Positions 8,169 to 20,834 of a DNA stretch of 33,510 nt are shown here, one piece after another; positions within the stretch are counted from its first letter, which is position 1; each line of letters opens with the position of its first letter. Source of the DNA: Thermoanaerobaculia bacterium (GTDB lineage: Bacteria; Acidobacteriota; Thermoanaerobaculia; Multivoradales; Multivoraceae). Made by a program: the position numbers and the translations under genes. The notes beneath the pieces were generated by a model. The model searched no databases and was not told the DNA's origin. It worked only from the letters and a program-made list of their open reading frames with translations. The DNA is taken from the NCBI GenBank assembly GCA_028285365.1, contig JANQPS010000466.1, forward strand, positions 1 through 33,510. Reading direction: 5' to 3'.

Positions 8169-9332
8169 TCACTCGGCGAGCTTGGCTTTCACTGCCTGCA
8201 CCATCGCGGTGCGCGCCATCGAGAACTGCGGGTTGGTGGCCTGGGGCCACGCCCCGTGAGTGACGATCACCAGATCCTGTTGCGGGTCGATCCAGATCAT
8301 CTGGCCGAAAATGCCGAGAGCAGCGTAGGCGCCTTCGTCGAACAGCCACCATAGGTAACCGTAGCCTTCGTAGCCGTTGGACGGGGCGGTCGATTCGGCC
8401 ATCCAGTTCCTGGGCAAGATTTCGGTGCCGTCAGGGAGGCGTCCGCCGTTGAGGGCAAACAGCCCGATGCGGGCGTAGTCCCGCAGGGTTGCGTTGATGC
8501 AGCAACCACCGAGCTCGACGCCATGATTGGCATCGATGGACCAGTTGGCGTCGTGCTCCATGCCGAACGGCTGCCAGATCTTCTGCTCGAGGTAGGTGGC
8601 GAGGTTGTTGCCGACCGCAGCACGCACGATTCCGCCGACGAGGTTCGTCTCACCGGTGTTGTAGTTGAACTCTTCTCCCGGCTCGTGCTCGACCGGAAGA
8701 TCGTCCAGGTAGTCGTAGAGCGTCAGCGCGTTGAGACCGCCGGCTCTTGCCACGTCCGATTGAGGGTCGGTGTAGTCCTCGTTCCACGCCACCCCGGAGG
8801 CCATCTGGAGGACATCCTGCAGCGTGGCCTCACCGTAGGCGCTACCACGCAGCTGCGGCAGGTAGTCGGTGACCGGATCCTCGACGCTGCGGATGTAGCC
8901 GTCCTTGATCGCCGCTCCGAGCAGCATGGAGGAAACCGACTTGGCGACGCTGAAGGAGATCCAGCGGCTGGTCGGGCCGTTGCCGAGCGCGTAGTCCTCG
9001 AACAGGATCTTGCCGTCCTGGACGACGAGCAGACCGACAATGTTCTGGTCCGCCATGTAGCCACCTAGCGTCCAGGTATTGCCGTTGTGCTCGAACGTCA
9101 TCTCGCGCAGCTGCGCGGATTCCTGTTTCGGTAGCGGATAGGCGTTCGCGCCGCGGCGAACCGGCCGAGTCGACCGAAACTGGTCGATGTTCTTGTAGCC
9201 GTAGAGCTGCTGGTTCGGCGTCCAGAAGAGAATGCTCGCCGGATCGAGCTCCTGGCTCGTCCCGGGGCTGAAGCTGGCGACGAGTGCAACGGCGAAGACT
9301 GCAGTGGCGAAGACAATGAGGATTCGCTGCAT
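8169..9332 (-). CDS. Serine hydrolase (class C beta-lactamase family), secreted
   Basis: Start chosen at MQRILIVFATAVFAVALVASFSPGTSQ (signal peptide); SxxK in 'ISFSVAKSVSSMLLGAAIKDG'; 'YNTGETNLVGGIV'. Confidence 0.88.
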   Translation of the reverse strand: MQRILIVFATAVFAVALVASFSPGTSQELDPASILFWTPNQQLYGYKNIDQFRSTRPVRRGANAYPLPKQESAQLREMTFEHNGNTWTLGGYMADQNIVGLLVVQDGKILFEDYALGNGPTSRWISFSVAKSVSSMLLGAAIKDGYIRSVEDPVTDYLPQLRGSAYGEATLQDVLQMASGVAWNEDYTDPQSDVARAGGLNALTLYDYLDDLPVEHEPGEEFNYNTGETNLVGGIVRAAVGNNLATYLEQKIWQPFGMEHDANWSIDANHGVELGGCCINATLRDYARIGLFALNGGRLPDGTEILPRNWMAESTAPSNGYEGYGYLWWLFDEGAYAALGIFGQMIWIDPQQDLVIVTHGAWPQATNPQFSMARTAMVQAVKAKLAE

Positions 9333-9437
9333 GGTTTTCTCCAGGACTGTTGTCTGAGCGTAGCAGTGGGATGCCGATGAGGGCGCAACCCAGACGTCGC
9401 TCGGCCGTAGGCGTGTTTGAATCCTCTGGAGGACAAC

Positions 9438-10676
9438 ATGAGAGTTAGCGCCTTCCCAGGCCTTGCAGGAATGCTGCTGAGCGTTTCGCTGGCGGCAGCT
9501 CCGATCGATGATCTCCACTCCGCCGTTGCTGAGCGCATCGAGTCGCAGCGTGAGGAGCTGGTCGAGCTGAGGCGGGATCTTCACCGTCATCCGGAAGTCT
9601 CGGGCGAAGAGGAGCGCACGGCTCGTGTGGTTGCCGAACGGCTCGAGACGCTGGGCTTGACCGTCACGACCGGCATCGGCGGGCATGGGGTGCTCGCGAT
9701 CGTCGAAGGTGCTCTGGACGGTCCTACGGTCGCGTACCGAGCCGACATGGACGCAGTGCCGTCGAGCGCTCCTGATCCGGTGGAGTTCAGGTCGGTCAAT
9801 GAAGGTGTACGGCACATCTGCGGTCACGACCTGCACACGACGATTGCCGTTGCGCTCGGCGATGCTTTTGCGTCGATCAGAGACCAGCTCCCGGGTCGAG
9901 TGGTCCTCGTGTTCCAACCTGCCGAGGAGCGCGCGACTGGCGCCAAGGCGATGCTCGCGGACGGCGTCCTGGAAAAGGCTCAGCCAGACGCCATCTACGC
10001 CGTTCATACGGCGCCCCTCGAGGTGGGACAGCTCGCGACGCGGAGCGGCGTCATGATGCCGCAACGGGACTCGATCCGGGTCAACGTCCGCGGCTCCACG
10101 GAGGCCGAAGTCAAGGCCGCGGCCAGCGCCGTCCGTCGGGCTGTGACGTCGGCAGGAACACTGAGGCCGGAGCAGGCGCGGGCGCCTCAGACCGGCGCGT
10201 TCAGCGTCGTCCAGCTTGGTGGTCCGTCGCCTGAGCCCGGAGGCGTCTGGACCGTCGCCGGAATGGCAACCGCCTCAGGTCCAACCAGTAGCGCTGAGCT
10301 ACGACAGCGTGTCGAGAAGGCCATTGCCGAGTTGGACTCGGACGGGGTCGATCTCGAGCTCGTCTACGAGCCCGCGGCAATCGCCGGTGTCAGGAACGAC
10401 GAGGAGCTCACGTCCGGTGCCATGGCGAGCGCCGGCCGGATCGTCGGGACCGAGAACGTCGTGGGCCTTACGACGTTGGTGCCGGCCTTCAGCGAAGACT
10501 TTGGCTCGTTTCAGCAGCAGGTCCCCGGTGTCATGTTTTTTCTCGGCGTGTCGAACAGCGAGAAGGGCATCGTCGGTATGCCCCATTCGCCTGGCTATGT
10601 GGCTGACGAGGAGGCGATCTTCGTTGGTGCCAAGGCGATGGCCGCGGTCGTGCTGGATCGGTTGAGAGCCGAGTGA
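9438..10676 (+). CDS. M20-family amidohydrolase/metallopeptidase, likely exported
   Basis: RBS TGGAGG; signal-like 'MRVSAFPGLAGMLLSVSLAAAP'; 'RRDLHRHPEVSGEEERTA', 'HICGHDLHTTIAVALG', 'VFQPAEERATGAKAML', 'FSEDFGSFQQQVPGVMFFLG'. Confidence 0.88.
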   Translation: MRVSAFPGLAGMLLSVSLAAAPIDDLHSAVAERIESQREELVELRRDLHRHPEVSGEEERTARVVAERLETLGLTVTTGIGGHGVLAIVEGALDGPTVAYRADMDAVPSSAPDPVEFRSVNEGVRHICGHDLHTTIAVALGDAFASIRDQLPGRVVLVFQPAEERATGAKAMLADGVLEKAQPDAIYAVHTAPLEVGQLATRSGVMMPQRDSIRVNVRGSTEAEVKAAASAVRRAVTSAGTLRPEQARAPQTGAFSVVQLGGPSPEPGGVWTVAGMATASGPTSSAELRQRVEKAIAELDSDGVDLELVYEPAAIAGVRNDEELTSGAMASAGRIVGTENVVGLTTLVPAFSEDFGSFQQQVPGVMFFLGVSNSEKGIVGMPHSPGYVADEEAIFVGAKAMAAVVLDRLRAE

Positions 10677-13683: not shown

Positions 13684-15420
13684 CTAGGACCGCGGCCCCC
13701 GATCGACGAGGAACAGATCTCGCTGGAGCCCGCGAACGTCGCTGTTGCGCTCGATGATGCGTCTCAGCGTCTGGTCCTCGACCATGTCGATCATGTCGCC
13801 CGGGAGGATGTGCTCGTACCAGAAGCTGTCGCCGTCTCGCAGCCGTTCGAACTGGTCGACGAGAATGGCTCTGAACGTCTCGCCGACCATGGCTCCTCGA
13901 ACGTGCTCCTCGGCGAGTCCACCGACCCAGAGATCGATGTTGTCGACGGAGCCGTAGGTGTCGCGTAGCTGTTGTTGCGTGGAGCGATCGGAGGTGACGT
14001 CTTCGAAACGACGGTGCGGGCGAAGACCGTACGCTTCGCGCGTCTGGTTGTAGCTCGCCAGGCCGTGGTCGCGCCCGCGCTGGATGTTGAGCGAGGCGAG
14101 GTCGAAGCCACCGGCTCCTGGAGGACCGAAGAGAAAGTTGCGCACGTCGTCGACGATCTCGAGATCGACTTCGCGAGCGCGCTGCTGGGCGAGTCCTCGG
14201 ATCATGGTCTCTAGCGCTGGAGACGCGAGGAGCGAAGGGTTGAAGAAGGCGTCGGCGAGCGCCAGCGGTCCTTCGGGAGACTCGCTGCCGTCCGCTTCGA
14301 GCCTGAGGATAGAGCTCGACAGCATGGTGTGACCGACGCGATAGGCGGCGGTTGCGAACTCGTTGGCGATCGATGGATCGGTGGTCGGCGAATAGCCTCT
14401 GTAGGGCGACAGGGCATCGTCGCCGAGCAGGACGGGCAGGAACTCTCGATAGGTGATCGCCTGCATCTCGGCGCCGACGAGAAGTCGCGTCAGCTGGTAG
14501 ATCTCCTCACCCACAAGATCGGGATTCGACGCCGCGATCTCGGCTGCCCAGTGATTGTGCTCCCGCACGAAGAGGAGGTGCATGGCAGTGAGCGTGACCT
14601 GCTCGTTGGCTCGGAAGTCGCCGGCCAGGAAGAACTCGTCCGAGTTCGATGGAGCGTTGGGTAGGCCCTGGGTGTTGAAGGGCAAAAGGTCTCCGTCGCT
14701 GGTTGCGAGTCGCCCGGTGCCGTCGAGGGTCCTCAGTGCTCGAGCGCGCTCGGAATCCGAGCCGTAGACGTTGGAAGCGTCGATGAATGCGGTGATTTCG
14801 TTGACCTGCTGGCGGATGCCGCTCGCATCGTGCTCGTAGCTCGAACGTTCGAGCGGAATCTCCTGGGTTCCCAGCCCGGCCGGATCGAACCAGCGATCGC
14901 CAGCCGGGACGGCGATGTTGAAGTTTTCGGCTGGCTCCGCGATCGGTGTCAAGGTGATGTCGTGATCGAGGAACTGGCCCCACAGCCAGAGGAGATCGCT
15001 GGCTCTCGAGTCGTTTTCAGTGGGCTCGATTTCTTCCATGCAGACATTGCTGATCTGTCTTGCGGTGGGCCGCGTCGATCCCGATGGTGTGTCGAGCCCA
15101 TCGGCGTAGTCGGCTGGAGAGAGACGGAGGAACTCGATACCGGCAGCGCCCCACTGTGGGTTGTCGACGTTGTTCCCGACGCCGTCGATCGAACGATAGA
15201 CCGAGCCCAAACTGGCTGGATCGAACTCAGGCCGGTCGCGTCGCCGATTGGCTTCTCGGCGCGGATTGTTGGGCGAGCGCTGGTCGTCCGCCTGCTCGCC
15301 ACGCTCCGGAGCGGGGAGCTGCTGGCCCTGTTGAGCTACGGACGGTCGAGGCACGGCAGTGGCTATCGCGAGGAGGCTGATACCCAGGCTGCCCAAGCTA
15401 AGCAAGCGATGTCTGGTCAT
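13684..15420 (-). CDS. Secreted animal-type heme peroxidase (peroxidase/cyclooxygenase superfamily)
   Basis: Start at MTRHRLLSLGSLGISLLAIATAVPRPSVAQ with RBS AAGGAG 8 nt upstream; 'LLWLWGQFLDHDITLTP', 'HLLFVREHNHWAAEIA', 'TYREFLPVLLG', 'LNIQRGRDHGLASYN'. Confidence 0.92.
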   Translation of the reverse strand: MTRHRLLSLGSLGISLLAIATAVPRPSVAQQGQQLPAPERGEQADDQRSPNNPRREANRRRDRPEFDPASLGSVYRSIDGVGNNVDNPQWGAAGIEFLRLSPADYADGLDTPSGSTRPTARQISNVCMEEIEPTENDSRASDLLWLWGQFLDHDITLTPIAEPAENFNIAVPAGDRWFDPAGLGTQEIPLERSSYEHDASGIRQQVNEITAFIDASNVYGSDSERARALRTLDGTGRLATSDGDLLPFNTQGLPNAPSNSDEFFLAGDFRANEQVTLTAMHLLFVREHNHWAAEIAASNPDLVGEEIYQLTRLLVGAEMQAITYREFLPVLLGDDALSPYRGYSPTTDPSIANEFATAAYRVGHTMLSSSILRLEADGSESPEGPLALADAFFNPSLLASPALETMIRGLAQQRAREVDLEIVDDVRNFLFGPPGAGGFDLASLNIQRGRDHGLASYNQTREAYGLRPHRRFEDVTSDRSTQQQLRDTYGSVDNIDLWVGGLAEEHVRGAMVGETFRAILVDQFERLRDGDSFWYEHILPGDMIDMVEDQTLRRIIERNSDVRGLQRDLFLVDRGPRS

Positions 15421-15510
15421 GGAATCTCTCCTTGGTGGTCGACTTTGGTGTCGAGGTTGTCGTCGAGCTGTCGTCGCTTCGGCTGAGTCGCCGCGACACC
15501 GAGCGGTGGG

Positions 15511-15525
15511 GCAACCTATGTGCCA
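15511..15525 (-). promoter_or_regulatory. Sigma54 (-24/-12) promoter for the peroxidase gene
   Basis: Minus strand reads TTGGCAC-ATAGG-TTGCC (15-bp core TGGCAC-N5-TTGC), about 80 nt upstream of the peroxidase ATG after the predicted TSS. Confidence 0.7.
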
Positions 15526-15610
15526 ATACGCATAAGCTCGACTGAACGCCAGGAAAGTCAAGGGGTTGTTGGCGAGGGGGTTGGCGTGTGGTGCCTCGGT
15601 GGACCGTCAG

Positions 15611-15655
15611 GAGACTGCAGAATCCGCACCCCGCAGGTGCGAGTTCCGCAGCATC
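15611..15655. promoter_or_regulatory. NtrC-like dyad / candidate enhancer (UAS)
   Basis: CGCACC-CCGCA-GGTGCG (15625-15641) nested in a longer imperfect inverted repeat GAGACTGCAGAATCCGCACC / GGTGCGAGTTCCGCAGCATC (15 of 20 positions complementary). Confidence 0.55.
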
Positions 15656-15701
15656 GGAGAGGCGCTGAGCGACCAGGACCCAGGGGAATCAGGTAGCTGG
15701 C

Positions 15702-15718
15702 TTGGCAGCGCTTTCGCT
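15702..15718 (+). promoter_or_regulatory. Possible weaker sigma54 promoter toward the histidine kinase gene
   Basis: TTGGCAGCGCTTTCGCT: GG-N10-GC spacing retained, -12 element TCGC rather than TTGC. Confidence 0.3.
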
Positions 15719-15842
15719 ACGTAGTTGCTCAGTGACTCTGCCGATCACAGTCAGGTAGCTCTAGCTCGGCGAGGTCCATGAGCTGGGTGTGTAGGCACAC
15801 CAGGGTCCGAATCAGCACCGGAAGCTGTGAGAATCAGAGGGG

Positions 15843-17233
<1,391 letters not shown>

Positions 17234-17237
<4 letters not shown>

Positions 17238-18562
17238 CTCGAATCCTGGTGGTCGACGATGAGGTCGGAATTCGTGAGTTTCTCGTCGATGCCTTGTCGA
17301 CGGGCTCGTTTGTCGTCGAGTCTGCGGACTCTGCGGAAGTGGCTCTCCTGTCGCTGCGTCGGCGGGCGTACGACCTCCTGATCACCGACCTCCGGATGCC
17401 GGGTCTCTCTGGTCTGGAACTGCTGAGCCAGGCGCGCCACGAACAGCCCGAGCTGGAAGTCATCGTCCTCACGGCTCACGGCTCGGTCCAGTCAGCGGTC
17501 GAAGCCATGCGCCTGGGTGCTTTCGACTATCTCCAGAAGCCCGTCGAGAGTCCGGAAGCGCTGCGTCTCGTCGTCGACCGTGCCCTCGAACGTCGCTCAC
17601 TGCTGCGGAGTCAGGCGGGTCGAGAGCGAGATTCGGAACTGCCAGTGCTCTCGTACGGCGACCCGGCGATGGATCCGGTGCTCCGCGCCATCGACAAGGT
17701 GGCGCCAACCGAGACGACGGTACTTCTGGAGGGAGAGAGCGGTACCGGAAAAGAGGTCGCGGCGAGAACGCTGCATGCGCTCAGTAATCGTCGTGGCGGA
17801 CCCTTCATCGCTCTCAACTGTGCCGCCGTCGCGGATACGTTGATCGAGAGCGAGCTCTTCGGGCACGAGAGGGGAGCCTTCACGGGAGCGACGAGCGCTC
17901 GACGAGGACGCTTGGAGCTGGCTTCGGGAGGGACCTTCTTTCTCGACGAGATCGGTGAGCTGAAGTCGGAACTGCAGGCGAAGTTGCTGCGTGTTCTCCA
18001 GGAAAAGGAGTTCGAGCGAGTCGGAGGAAGTCGCACGATGAGCTCTGACGTCCGGTGGATCGCCGCGACCAATCGTGACCTGGAGGCGGAGGTGGAACGA
18101 GGACGGTTCCGCGAGGATCTCTACCACCGCATTGCGGTGTTTCCGATCGGTTTGCCGCCGCTGCGGGAGCGTCGTGAGGACATTGCACCACTCGCCGAGA
18201 CCCTGCTCGGCCGGATCGGAGCTCAGCTGGGCCGTCCTCGATTGAGACTCACGTCGGAAGCCGCGGAAGCGATCCAGGATGCGTTCTGGCCGGGCAACGT
18301 CCGTGAGCTTTCCAACGCACTCGAACGAGCCGCCATCCTCACCAGCGGCTCGAGTATCGGTTTGGCCCACCTGACCCTTCGAGAGGGCTCGGAATCGACG
18401 TCGCGTGATGACGGTGCCGTGCGGTCGTTGGAGGAAGTGGAGCGCGAGGCGATCGTGCGGGCGCTTCAGGCAGTCGACGGGAATCGGCGTCAGGCCGCCG
18501 AGATTCTCGGCATCGGCCTGAGGACTCTCTACGACAAGCTCAAGCGCTACGATCTTCAGTAA
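17234..18562 (+). CDS. Sigma54-dependent response regulator (NtrC family)
   Basis: REC '[18 protein letters not shown]...[10 protein letters not shown]'; AAA+ '[17 protein letters not shown]', 'GAFTGA'; Fis-type HTH '[24 protein letters not shown]'; GTG start overlaps the kinase stop (GTGA). Confidence 0.95.
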
Positions 18563-18593: not shown

Positions 18594-20834
18594 ATGAACC
18601 ACCTTGTCTCGTTGTCCGGCAGGTCATCGTGTGCGCGTCTGATCGCGTTCCTGGTGGTCGTTCTGATCACGGTGGCGCTCAGCACGGGCTGCCTGCAGAG
18701 AACCTCGGTCGACCCCGAGCTCGATCGCCTGTCCGCCATTGCCGAGCGCGTCACGATCATGAGGGATGACTTCGGTGTTCCACACGTCTACGGAAAGACC
18801 GACGCCGACGCCGTGTTCGGGCTGCTCTACGCCCAGGCCGAAGACGACTTCCGGCGCATCGAGCGCAACTACACGTGGGCGGTCGGAAGGCTTGCCGAGG
18901 CGGAGGGCGAAGGTGCTCTCTTCAGCGACTTGCGAGCTCGCCTGTACATGACGATCGATGAAGCCAAGGCGCATTACGACTCCTCCCCGCCCTGGCTCAA
19001 AGAGCTCTGCGTGGCGTTTGCCGACGGTCTGAACTACTACCTCGCGACTCATCCGGAGGTGGTTCCCGAGGTCATCGAGCGCTACGAGCCATGGATGCCG
19101 ATGTTCTTCTTCGAAGGCTCGATCGGCGGTGACATCGAGCAGATTCCGCTGGGAGGTATCGAGGCCTTCTATGGTCGCGACGAGTCCATCGACATGGCCG
19201 CTCTGCGGGAGGCCAGAGCGCCCAGATTCGGCTACGACCACCATCTCGGCTCCAATGGTTTTGCGATTGCCGGTGAGCACACCCTCTCGGGAGACGCCTT
19301 GCTGCTCATCAATCCGCACACCACGTTCTTTTTTCGCGGCGAAGTCCACGTCGTGAGTGAAGAAGGTCTCAATGCCTACGGTGCCGTGACCTGGGGACAG
19401 TTCTTCGTCTACCAGGGGTTCAACGAAGACACGGGCTGGATGCACACGTCGACCCGCGTGGACTTCATGGACGAGTTCCTCGAGGAGATCGTCGATCGAG
19501 ATGGCGAGCTGTTCTACCGCTACGGAGAAGAGCTCAGGCCGGTCGAGGTTTCCGAGGTCACCCTTCGCTACAAGGACGGTGAGTCGCTCGCGGAGCGCAC
19601 CTTTCCTACGTACCGTACCCATCATGGACCCATCACTCACAAGCTCGGTGAGCGGTGGGTGGCGACGAAGATCAACTGGAATCCGCCAAAGGCGCTCGAA
19701 CAGTCGTTCGTCCGCACCAAGCAGGCCGGCCTGGACGGCTTCAACGAGATGATGGAGATCCGCACCAACTCGTCGAACAACACGGTGTACGCGGATTCGA
19801 GCGGCAACATCGCGTACTACCACGGCAACTTCGTACCGCGGCGCGACCCTACCGTCGACTACTCCGAGCCGGTTGACGGCAGTGACCCCGGAACCGATTG
19901 GCAGGGGCTCCACGAGCTCGGCGAGATCGTCACCGTCACGAATCCCGAGAACGGCTGGGTTCAGAACTGCAACTCCACGCCGTTCACTTCAGCTGGCGAG
20001 TTCAGTCCCAAGGCGAGCGACTATCCTGCCTACATGGCGCCAGATCCGGAGAACTACCGGGGCATTCACGCCGTGCAGGTGCTCGAAGAGCTCGACGGCA
20101 GCTCCGACCTGACGCTCGACGGCCTCATCGAGATGGCCTACGACCCGTACCTTCCTGGCCTGGCGGTTCTCGTGCCATCGCTCGTCCAGGCGTACGACGC
20201 CTCAGGTGGCGATGAAGCGTTGGCCTCGGCGATCGACGCGCTGCGCACCTGGGACTTCACGGTGTCCGTCGATTCTGTGGCGATGACGCTGGCGCACTTC
20301 TACGGCATGCAGTTCAGGCAAGACGGAGCCAACCCTGACGGACTGCGCGGTATGGCGCAGGTCGAGTGGTTCGCCAACTCCTCGGCGCGCGACGAGCGTC
20401 TGCGGATCTTCAGAGCCACCCTCGAGAAGCTCGAAGAAGACTTCGGCAGCTGGCAAACCCCGTGGGGCGAGGTCAATCGCTTTCAGCGCCTCAGTGGAGA
20501 TATCGATCTGAGCTACGACGACACCGCGCCGAGTCTTCCGGTCGGAATGGCGTCCGGAGACTGGGGTGCGCTCGCGTCGTTCCGGGCGCGGCAGAGGGCC
20601 GGCACCAAGCGCATCTACGGTTCGTCTGGCAACAGCTTCGTCGCCGTCGTGGAGTTTGGCGAGCGCCTGAAGGCGAAGACCCTACTGGCGGGTGGTCAGA
20701 GCGGTGATCCGCAGTCTCCGCACTTCGACGACCAGGCGGAGCGTTACGCCAACGTCGAGTTCAAGGACGTGGCCTACTACCGGGAAGATGTCGAGGCGCG
20801 GGCTGTGAGCACGTACCGTCCGGGGGAACGGTAG
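18594..20834 (+). CDS. Penicillin acylase / N-acyl amide hydrolase family lipoprotein (Ntn hydrolase)
   Basis: Lipobox-like 'ALSTGC'; 'VTIMRDDFGVPHVYGKTDADAVFGLLYAQAEDDFRRIE'; nucleophile region 'HLGSNGFAIAG'; 'KRIYGSSGNSFVAVVEFGE'. Confidence 0.92.
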   Translation: MNHLVSLSGRSSCARLIAFLVVVLITVALSTGCLQRTSVDPELDRLSAIAERVTIMRDDFGVPHVYGKTDADAVFGLLYAQAEDDFRRIERNYTWAVGRLAEAEGEGALFSDLRARLYMTIDEAKAHYDSSPPWLKELCVAFADGLNYYLATHPEVVPEVIERYEPWMPMFFFEGSIGGDIEQIPLGGIEAFYGRDESIDMAALREARAPRFGYDHHLGSNGFAIAGEHTLSGDALLLINPHTTFFFRGEVHVVSEEGLNAYGAVTWGQFFVYQGFNEDTGWMHTSTRVDFMDEFLEEIVDRDGELFYRYGEELRPVEVSEVTLRYKDGESLAERTFPTYRTHHGPITHKLGERWVATKINWNPPKALEQSFVRTKQAGLDGFNEMMEIRTNSSNNTVYADSSGNIAYYHGNFVPRRDPTVDYSEPVDGSDPGTDWQGLHELGEIVTVTNPENGWVQNCNSTPFTSAGEFSPKASDYPAYMAPDPENYRGIHAVQVLEELDGSSDLTLDGLIEMAYDPYLPGLAVLVPSLVQAYDASGGDEALASAIDALRTWDFTVSVDSVAMTLAHFYGMQFRQDGANPDGLRGMAQVEWFANSSARDERLRIFRATLEKLEEDFGSWQTPWGEVNRFQRLSGDIDLSYDDTAPSLPVGMASGDWGALASFRARQRAGTKRIYGSSGNSFVAVVEFGERLKAKTLLAGGQSGDPQSPHFDDQAERYANVEFKDVAYYREDVEARAVSTYRPGER

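Follow-up and report, generated by a model that had tools for sequence, protein, structure and literature searches.

A candidate ZraPSR-like sigma54 cassette beside a secreted animal-type heme peroxidase in Acidobacteriota

Activators of the NtrC family are expected to occupy two tandem sites upstream of a -24/-12 promoter box. The regulon of one of them, ZraR, is tiny and consists of zraP, zraS, zraR, and possibly mgtA (PMC7657598). In Pseudomonas putida GB-1, MnxS1/S2-MnxR exerts sigma54-dependent control of Mn oxidases, and the same strain also encodes the animal-type heme peroxidase MopA (PMC11409713, PMC9765421). The expression of MopA is tied to FleQ, and the protein is composed of two peroxidase domains together with RTX-type Ca repeats (PMC9765421). 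For at least one family of early bacterial peroxidases in the superfamily that gave rise to myeloperoxidase, the literature calls the physiological role "completely unknown" (PMC4420034).

The window analyzed here, i.e., the whole stretch of DNA under study, comprises 33,510 nt of contig JANQPS010000466.1 (GCA_028285365.1) from a Thermoanaerobaculia bacterium (Acidobacteriota, Multivoraceae), whose 9.1-Mb genome was also scanned by sequence pattern. The genomes compared with it are fragmented MAGs, and the sample of the order consists of 72 genomes. The activator served as the query in the cross-genome homologue search, a kinase N-terminal query having missed known homologues. Sigma54 boxes were scored with an approximate PWM written after the published consensus, not taken from a curated matrix.

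The peroxidase gene and its two-component neighbors

The peroxidase gene (13684..15420, minus strand) encodes a secreted, animal-type heme peroxidase of 578 aa, whose PF03098 match (E 2.3e-160) places it in the peroxidase-cyclooxygenase superfamily; it is the only PF03098 gene found in the host genome. Its closest solved structure is 8s6c, named "Lactoperoxidase" (E 9e-167). Distal H153, R270/E273, proximal H364, and N445 are invariant among relatives, which keep the distal WGQFLDHD motif (containing H153), the R-x-x-E pair, the proximal RxGH, and NIQRGRDHG. The functional roles of these catalytic residues were assigned from those established for MPO/LPO and from PMC4420034. The start at ATG 15420, the ribosome binding site AAGGAG (15428..15433, minus strand), and the signal peptide named in the preliminary description of this DNA are all present, the N-terminus MTRHRLLSLGSLGISLLAIATAVPRPSVAQ reading as a Sec-type signal by eye.

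Across the order, the peroxidase is present in 11 of the 72 genomes (E <= 1e-60), and similar enzymes are numerous in Verrucomicrobiota and Planctomycetota. The backbone of the peroxidase tree is weak; the copies at L038 and L039 pair at 98% support, and the window copy falls outside that pair. Related peroxidases, mostly from Verrucomicrobiota, have an OmpR-type response regulator 17-630 nt away (L042, L043, L048, L050, L051, L052, L056, L057, L062, L068, L071, L073, L082, L088, L106, and L112). Among six of these regulators, the best model was CusR/CopR (heavy-metal) for four, CpxR for one, and PhoB for one, all with scores below the cutoffs. The peroxidase family thus seems to have been put under local two-component control repeatedly.

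On the other side of the intergenic region lies a membrane sensor histidine kinase of 464 aa (15843..17237, plus strand) with HisKA and HATPase_c domains, in which hydropathy reveals two TM segments flanking a periplasmic region of ~150 aa. Its best NCBIfam model is ZraS, reached at 160.5 bits against an equivalog cutoff of 479. An AlphaFold model of the sensor region, built without an alignment, was discarded at a pLDDT of 48. The adjoining gene (17234..18562, plus strand) encodes a sigma54-activating response regulator of 442 aa with a receiver, a Sigma54_activat domain carrying GAFTGA, and HTH_8, so that the GAFTGA activator beside a membrane kinase announced by the preliminary description was indeed found. 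The combination of receiver, AAA+ domain with GAFTGA, and Fis-type HTH assigns it to the NtrC family (COG2204-type). Among the matches listed, it scores under the cutoff of every named equivalog, including ZraR (362.6 bits, cutoff 760), and its homologues in seven other genomes share 57-65% identity.

A penicillin-amidase family gene (18594-20834) with a weak likeness to the PvdQ acylase (81 bits) follows the activator gene after 31 nt; it was dropped as a candidate operon member, being absent beside the activator in the relatives examined. Elsewhere in the window, at 8169-10676, a beta-lactamase-family ORF on the minus strand overlaps an M20 peptidase ORF on the plus strand, and one of the two starts probably lies further in.

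Promoter box and tandem dyads in the intergenic region

The sigma54 -24/-12 box TGGCACATAGGTTGC (15511..15525, minus strand) reads TGGCAC-ATAGG-TTGC, with ten bases between GG and GC (GG-N10-GC). It is the only exact match to TGGCAC-N5-TTGC in the window, which bears out the earlier report of an exact, correctly spaced consensus at this place. The PWM scan proposed in the same description ranks the box first in the window at 14.4 bits by the approximate matrix, the runner-up reaching 12.0, and when the 422-nt intergenic region was dinucleotide-shuffled, 0.6% of the shuffles contained an equally good site. Counted from the peroxidase ATG, the -24 T is 105 nt and the -12 C 91 nt upstream, and the predicted TSS at ~15499 would give a leader of ~79 nt. 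The host genome encodes RpoN, with its RpoN box ARRTVAKYR, in a gene split over two contig ends.

Upstream of the box, two candidate operator dyads that were absent from the preliminary description were added by the present analysis. The proximal dyad TGCGGATTCTGCA (15616..15628) begins 103 nt and the distal dyad TGCGGAACTCGCA (15638..15650) 125 nt upstream of the -24 T, both given on the peroxidase strand. Each is 13 bp long and has the form TGCR-N5-YGCA, with the consensus TGCGGAwTCCGCA, and the spacing between the two is 22 nt. The dyads were first spotted by eye in six promoter regions set side by side, where two copies sit upstream of every box; in four of the other regions they are 21-24 nt apart, and in genome G026 32 nt. 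The window contains a single tandem pair where 0.01 would be expected, and none arose when each promoter region was shuffled 4000 times.

A weaker sigma54-like box, TGGCAGCGCTTTCGC (15703..15717, plus strand; PWM 10.4, shuffle p 0.046), faces the kinase-activator operon. The dyads stand at offsets of -87/-65 from it, matching those of the kinase promoter in G037 (-89/-66), which hints at possible autoregulation of the operon. The intergenic region contains no Rfam match and no sigma70 promoter or terminator match. An IHF-like site with one mismatch, AGTCAAGGGGTTG (15556-15568), is located between the operator and the promoter.

Distribution of the candidate cassette and its putative output genes

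Close activator homologues (59-64% identity) adjoin the peroxidase in two other genomes, G026 and G052. In G026 (L039), peroxidase, kinase, and activator are all on one strand; in G052 (L038), peroxidase and activator share a strand, with the kinase inverted and without a large sensor loop. The peroxidase is preceded by a strong box in both genomes (TGGCACATGGGTTGCT and TGGCATAGCGATTGCT). In G047, the activator gene and the end of a kinase gene lie at one contig edge (L134) and the peroxidase start, with the upstream box TGGCACACCCGTTGCT, lies at another (L136), so the activator-peroxidase link in this genome spans two contigs. The distance from the -24 T to the start codon is 105 nt in the present genome, 125 nt in G052, 93 nt in G026, and 96 nt in G047. 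The promoter regions are otherwise 35-49% identical and keep TGGCAYA-N4-TTGCYC; conservation of the promoter in homologous loci, which had been put forward as a check, was thus found in L038, L039, and L136.

A strong box with a tandem operator precedes the peroxidase in all four Acidobacteriota genomes that possess both an activator homologue and a related peroxidase. Around 85 peroxidase loci, belonging to Acidobacteriota, Verrucomicrobiota, and Planctomycetota among other groups, were scanned for boxes; none of the 82 loci without the activator had a box of comparable score, their best upstream box reaching 12.7 bits versus 14.4-16.8 for the activator loci in the scan. Sigma54-mediated control of the peroxidase by the two-component system, as proposed in the preliminary description, is well supported at the level of sequence, both by the conservation of box and operator in 4/4 genomes and by their absence from ~80 peroxidase loci lacking the activator.

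A wider count was made across the order, with "activator absent" defined as no match at E <= 1e-130 among the matches listed per genome. By this threshold, six of the 72 genomes have an activator homologue among the matches listed. A dyad pair with a 6-13-nt gap and a sigma54 box <=350 nt away was found in 5/6 activator genomes versus 0/66 others (Fisher 4e-7, among the matches listed), a count that overstates independence because four of those five belonged to the discovery set. The sixth activator genome, G026, has the pair at its 32-nt spacing, outside the gap pattern. The tandem pattern without a box was also seen in activator-free genomes, at chance expectation.

Operator and box recurred in three genomes outside the discovery set, namely, G036, G191, and G348. 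In G191, a full dyad and, 23 nt from it, a near-perfect one precede an 18.4-bit box ~3.4 kb after the activator gene, and the target is a Metal_resist/LTXXQ secreted protein. In G348, dyads 32 nt apart and a box come immediately after the kinase-activator genes; the target gene is truncated and matches the Metal_resist/LTXXQ Pfam families below cutoff. These families are those of the ZraP/Spy-type periplasmic proteins. G036 has three dyads in tandem together with two strong sigma54 boxes (L156:4831-5139), with no clear target gene and no obvious open reading frame downstream of the boxes; a small gene, an RNA, or a decayed target is possible. The operator there adjoins a divergent gene resembling glycyl-tRNA synthetase.

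A kinase-activator-operator cassette without a peroxidase was also found in G037 (L037:7063-11846). Here the operator separates a YHYH gene from the kinase operon, with boxes facing both ways, one of them 71 nt upstream of the secreted YHYH gene; a gene for a secreted EF-hand protein has a second operator and another box upstream. The outputs are accordingly ZraP/Spy-like in G191 and G348, YHYH and EF-hand in G037, and myeloperoxidase-like in the host, G026, G047, and G052. It is an even call whether these loci represent a modular Acidobacteriota sigma54 cassette whose output has been exchanged several times with operator, activator, and kinase kept.

Proposed circuit, its rivals, and known systems

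The locus is very probably a dedicated, single-target sigma54 cassette of ZraPSR-like design, in which kinase, activator, tandem operator, and box would together drive the secreted peroxidase. The membrane kinase (15843-17237) would sense a periplasmic cue and phosphorylate the activator (17234-18562), which in turn would bind the tandem pair of TGCR-N5-YGCA dyads (15616-15650) and, through DNA looping, open RNA polymerase-sigma54 at the -24/-12 promoter (15525-15511). Promoter opening would lead to synthesis of the myeloperoxidase/lactoperoxidase-like enzyme, the peroxidase filling the slot of ZraP, and weak expression of the kinase-activator operon from the box at 15703 is probably due to this operator as well. 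In favor of this reading, the recognition helix G(I/L)GLRTLY(D/E)K is common to all eight activators; E. coli ZraR differs there, and so does the inverted repeat of its own control region. The adjacent activator is presumably the protein bound at the dyads, transcription from the box is likewise presumed, and we infer metal or envelope/oxidative stress as the signal.

A manganese-oxidation regulator like MnxS1/S2-MnxR, with the peroxidase acting as a Mn(II) oxidase, would be compatible with this promoter model and is suggested by Pseudomonas, where Mn oxidases are under the control of sigma54-dependent MnxR and Mn(II) is a substrate of animal-type heme peroxidases (MopA) (PMC11409713, PMC9765421). 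It is nonetheless unlikely, as MopA-type enzymes combine two domains with RTX repeats (PMC9765421) and the present protein has one domain and no RTX match; moreover, homologous cassettes drive ZraP/Spy-like proteins.

It is also conceivable that dyads and box are real but served by a second activator of this family whose gene lies elsewhere in the genome, the neighboring pair being incidental. Homologous activators with the identical recognition helix might bind the same operator, the helix type may be common to other NtrC-family regulators, and each genome has many candidate homologues. Against this, operator and box go with this particular activator throughout the order and adjoin it even where the target differs (G037, G348), which makes service by another activator very unlikely.

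The exact consensus has 17 matches across the 9.1-Mb genome versus 21 for a reversed control, i.e., it is at chance level, and because genome-wide exact matches do not exceed chance, an exact match alone is weak promoter evidence. The box might thus have arisen by chance, with the peroxidase relying on an ordinary promoter and some other target being regulated by the two-component system. That the box is accompanied by the tandem operator in every activator-peroxidase genome, that both are missing from peroxidase loci without the activator, and that the tandem pair has a single occurrence in the host genome render this account highly improbable.

Control of the peroxidase by an NtrB/NtrC nitrogen regulator is barely credible, since NtrC, although the best NCBIfam model of the activator, is matched at 437.6 bits below its cutoff of 558.6, the kinase is a membrane protein with a periplasmic part and finds its best model in ZraS, and the regulon is a single site. 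The label "NtrB/NtrC-like" given in the preliminary description holds at the superfamily level and fails for NtrB/NtrC proper, ZraPSR being nearer; "NtrB-like" is imprecise for a kinase with two TM segments and a ~150-aa periplasmic region. The ZraPSR-like reading is preferred over NtrBC because the cassette targets in G191 and G348 are ZraP/Spy-like.

The dedicated ZraPSR-like cassette suggests that systems of this kind can swap the output gene and keep the control parts, and TGCGGAwTCCGCA pairs are predicted to mark targets of this activator family across Acidobacteriota. If the modular reading were true, the cell would answer envelope or metal stress with peroxidase chemistry outside the cell as its stress output. 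Finding the inducing signal of such a dedicated switch would point to the role of early bacterial peroxidases.

Regarding the enzyme, the protein resembles the bacterial lactoperoxidase-like enzymes and peroxidockerins, sharing PF03098 with distal His/Asp, Arg/Glu, Ca-site, and proximal His motifs; the enzyme type is already known, and the novelty at this locus is its regulation. In the open-access literature searched, with most subscription papers outside its scope, no description of the kinase-activator/peroxidase pairing was found, nor of a single-domain bacterial heme peroxidase under a ZraPSR-like or dedicated sigma54 switch, in agreement with the preliminary description, which knew of no report of such a pairing. 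The CusR/CopR/HprR- and CpxR-type systems of Verrucomicrobiota share local two-component control of the same peroxidase family, but their regulators are OmpR-type and unrelated to the NtrC-type activator found here. The Mnx system, with the Mn oxidases MnxG, McoA, and MopA, has in common a sigma54 two-component activator over extracellular metal/organic oxidases in a strain with an animal-type peroxidase (PMC11409713, PMC11930936); it differs in that MnxR is reported for multicopper oxidases. The peroxidase itself, having one peroxidase domain and no RTX match, is not of the MopA type.

The likeness to ZraPSR is broader. In the window as in E. coli zraP-zraSR, a secreted output gene is divergent from an operon of a membrane kinase and a sigma54 activator, and boxes face both ways with a palindromic element between them, the kinase-facing box of the window being the weaker. 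The regulon is very small, as judged here from the operator count (single site), and the homologous G191 and G348 cassettes are linked to Metal_resist/LTXXQ (ZraP/Spy-like) genes. The differences are that the output here is a PF03098 heme peroxidase and not a ZraP-type protein, that E. coli has a GAGTAAAAATGACTC-type inverted repeat in place of the TGCGGAwTCCGCA operator, and that the activator and kinase are 43% and 34% identical, respectively, and score below the ZraR/ZraS equivalog cutoffs. Judged from these comparisons, the nearest working analogue of the predicted circuit is ZraPSR, yet by curated cutoffs the locus stands outside ZraPSR.
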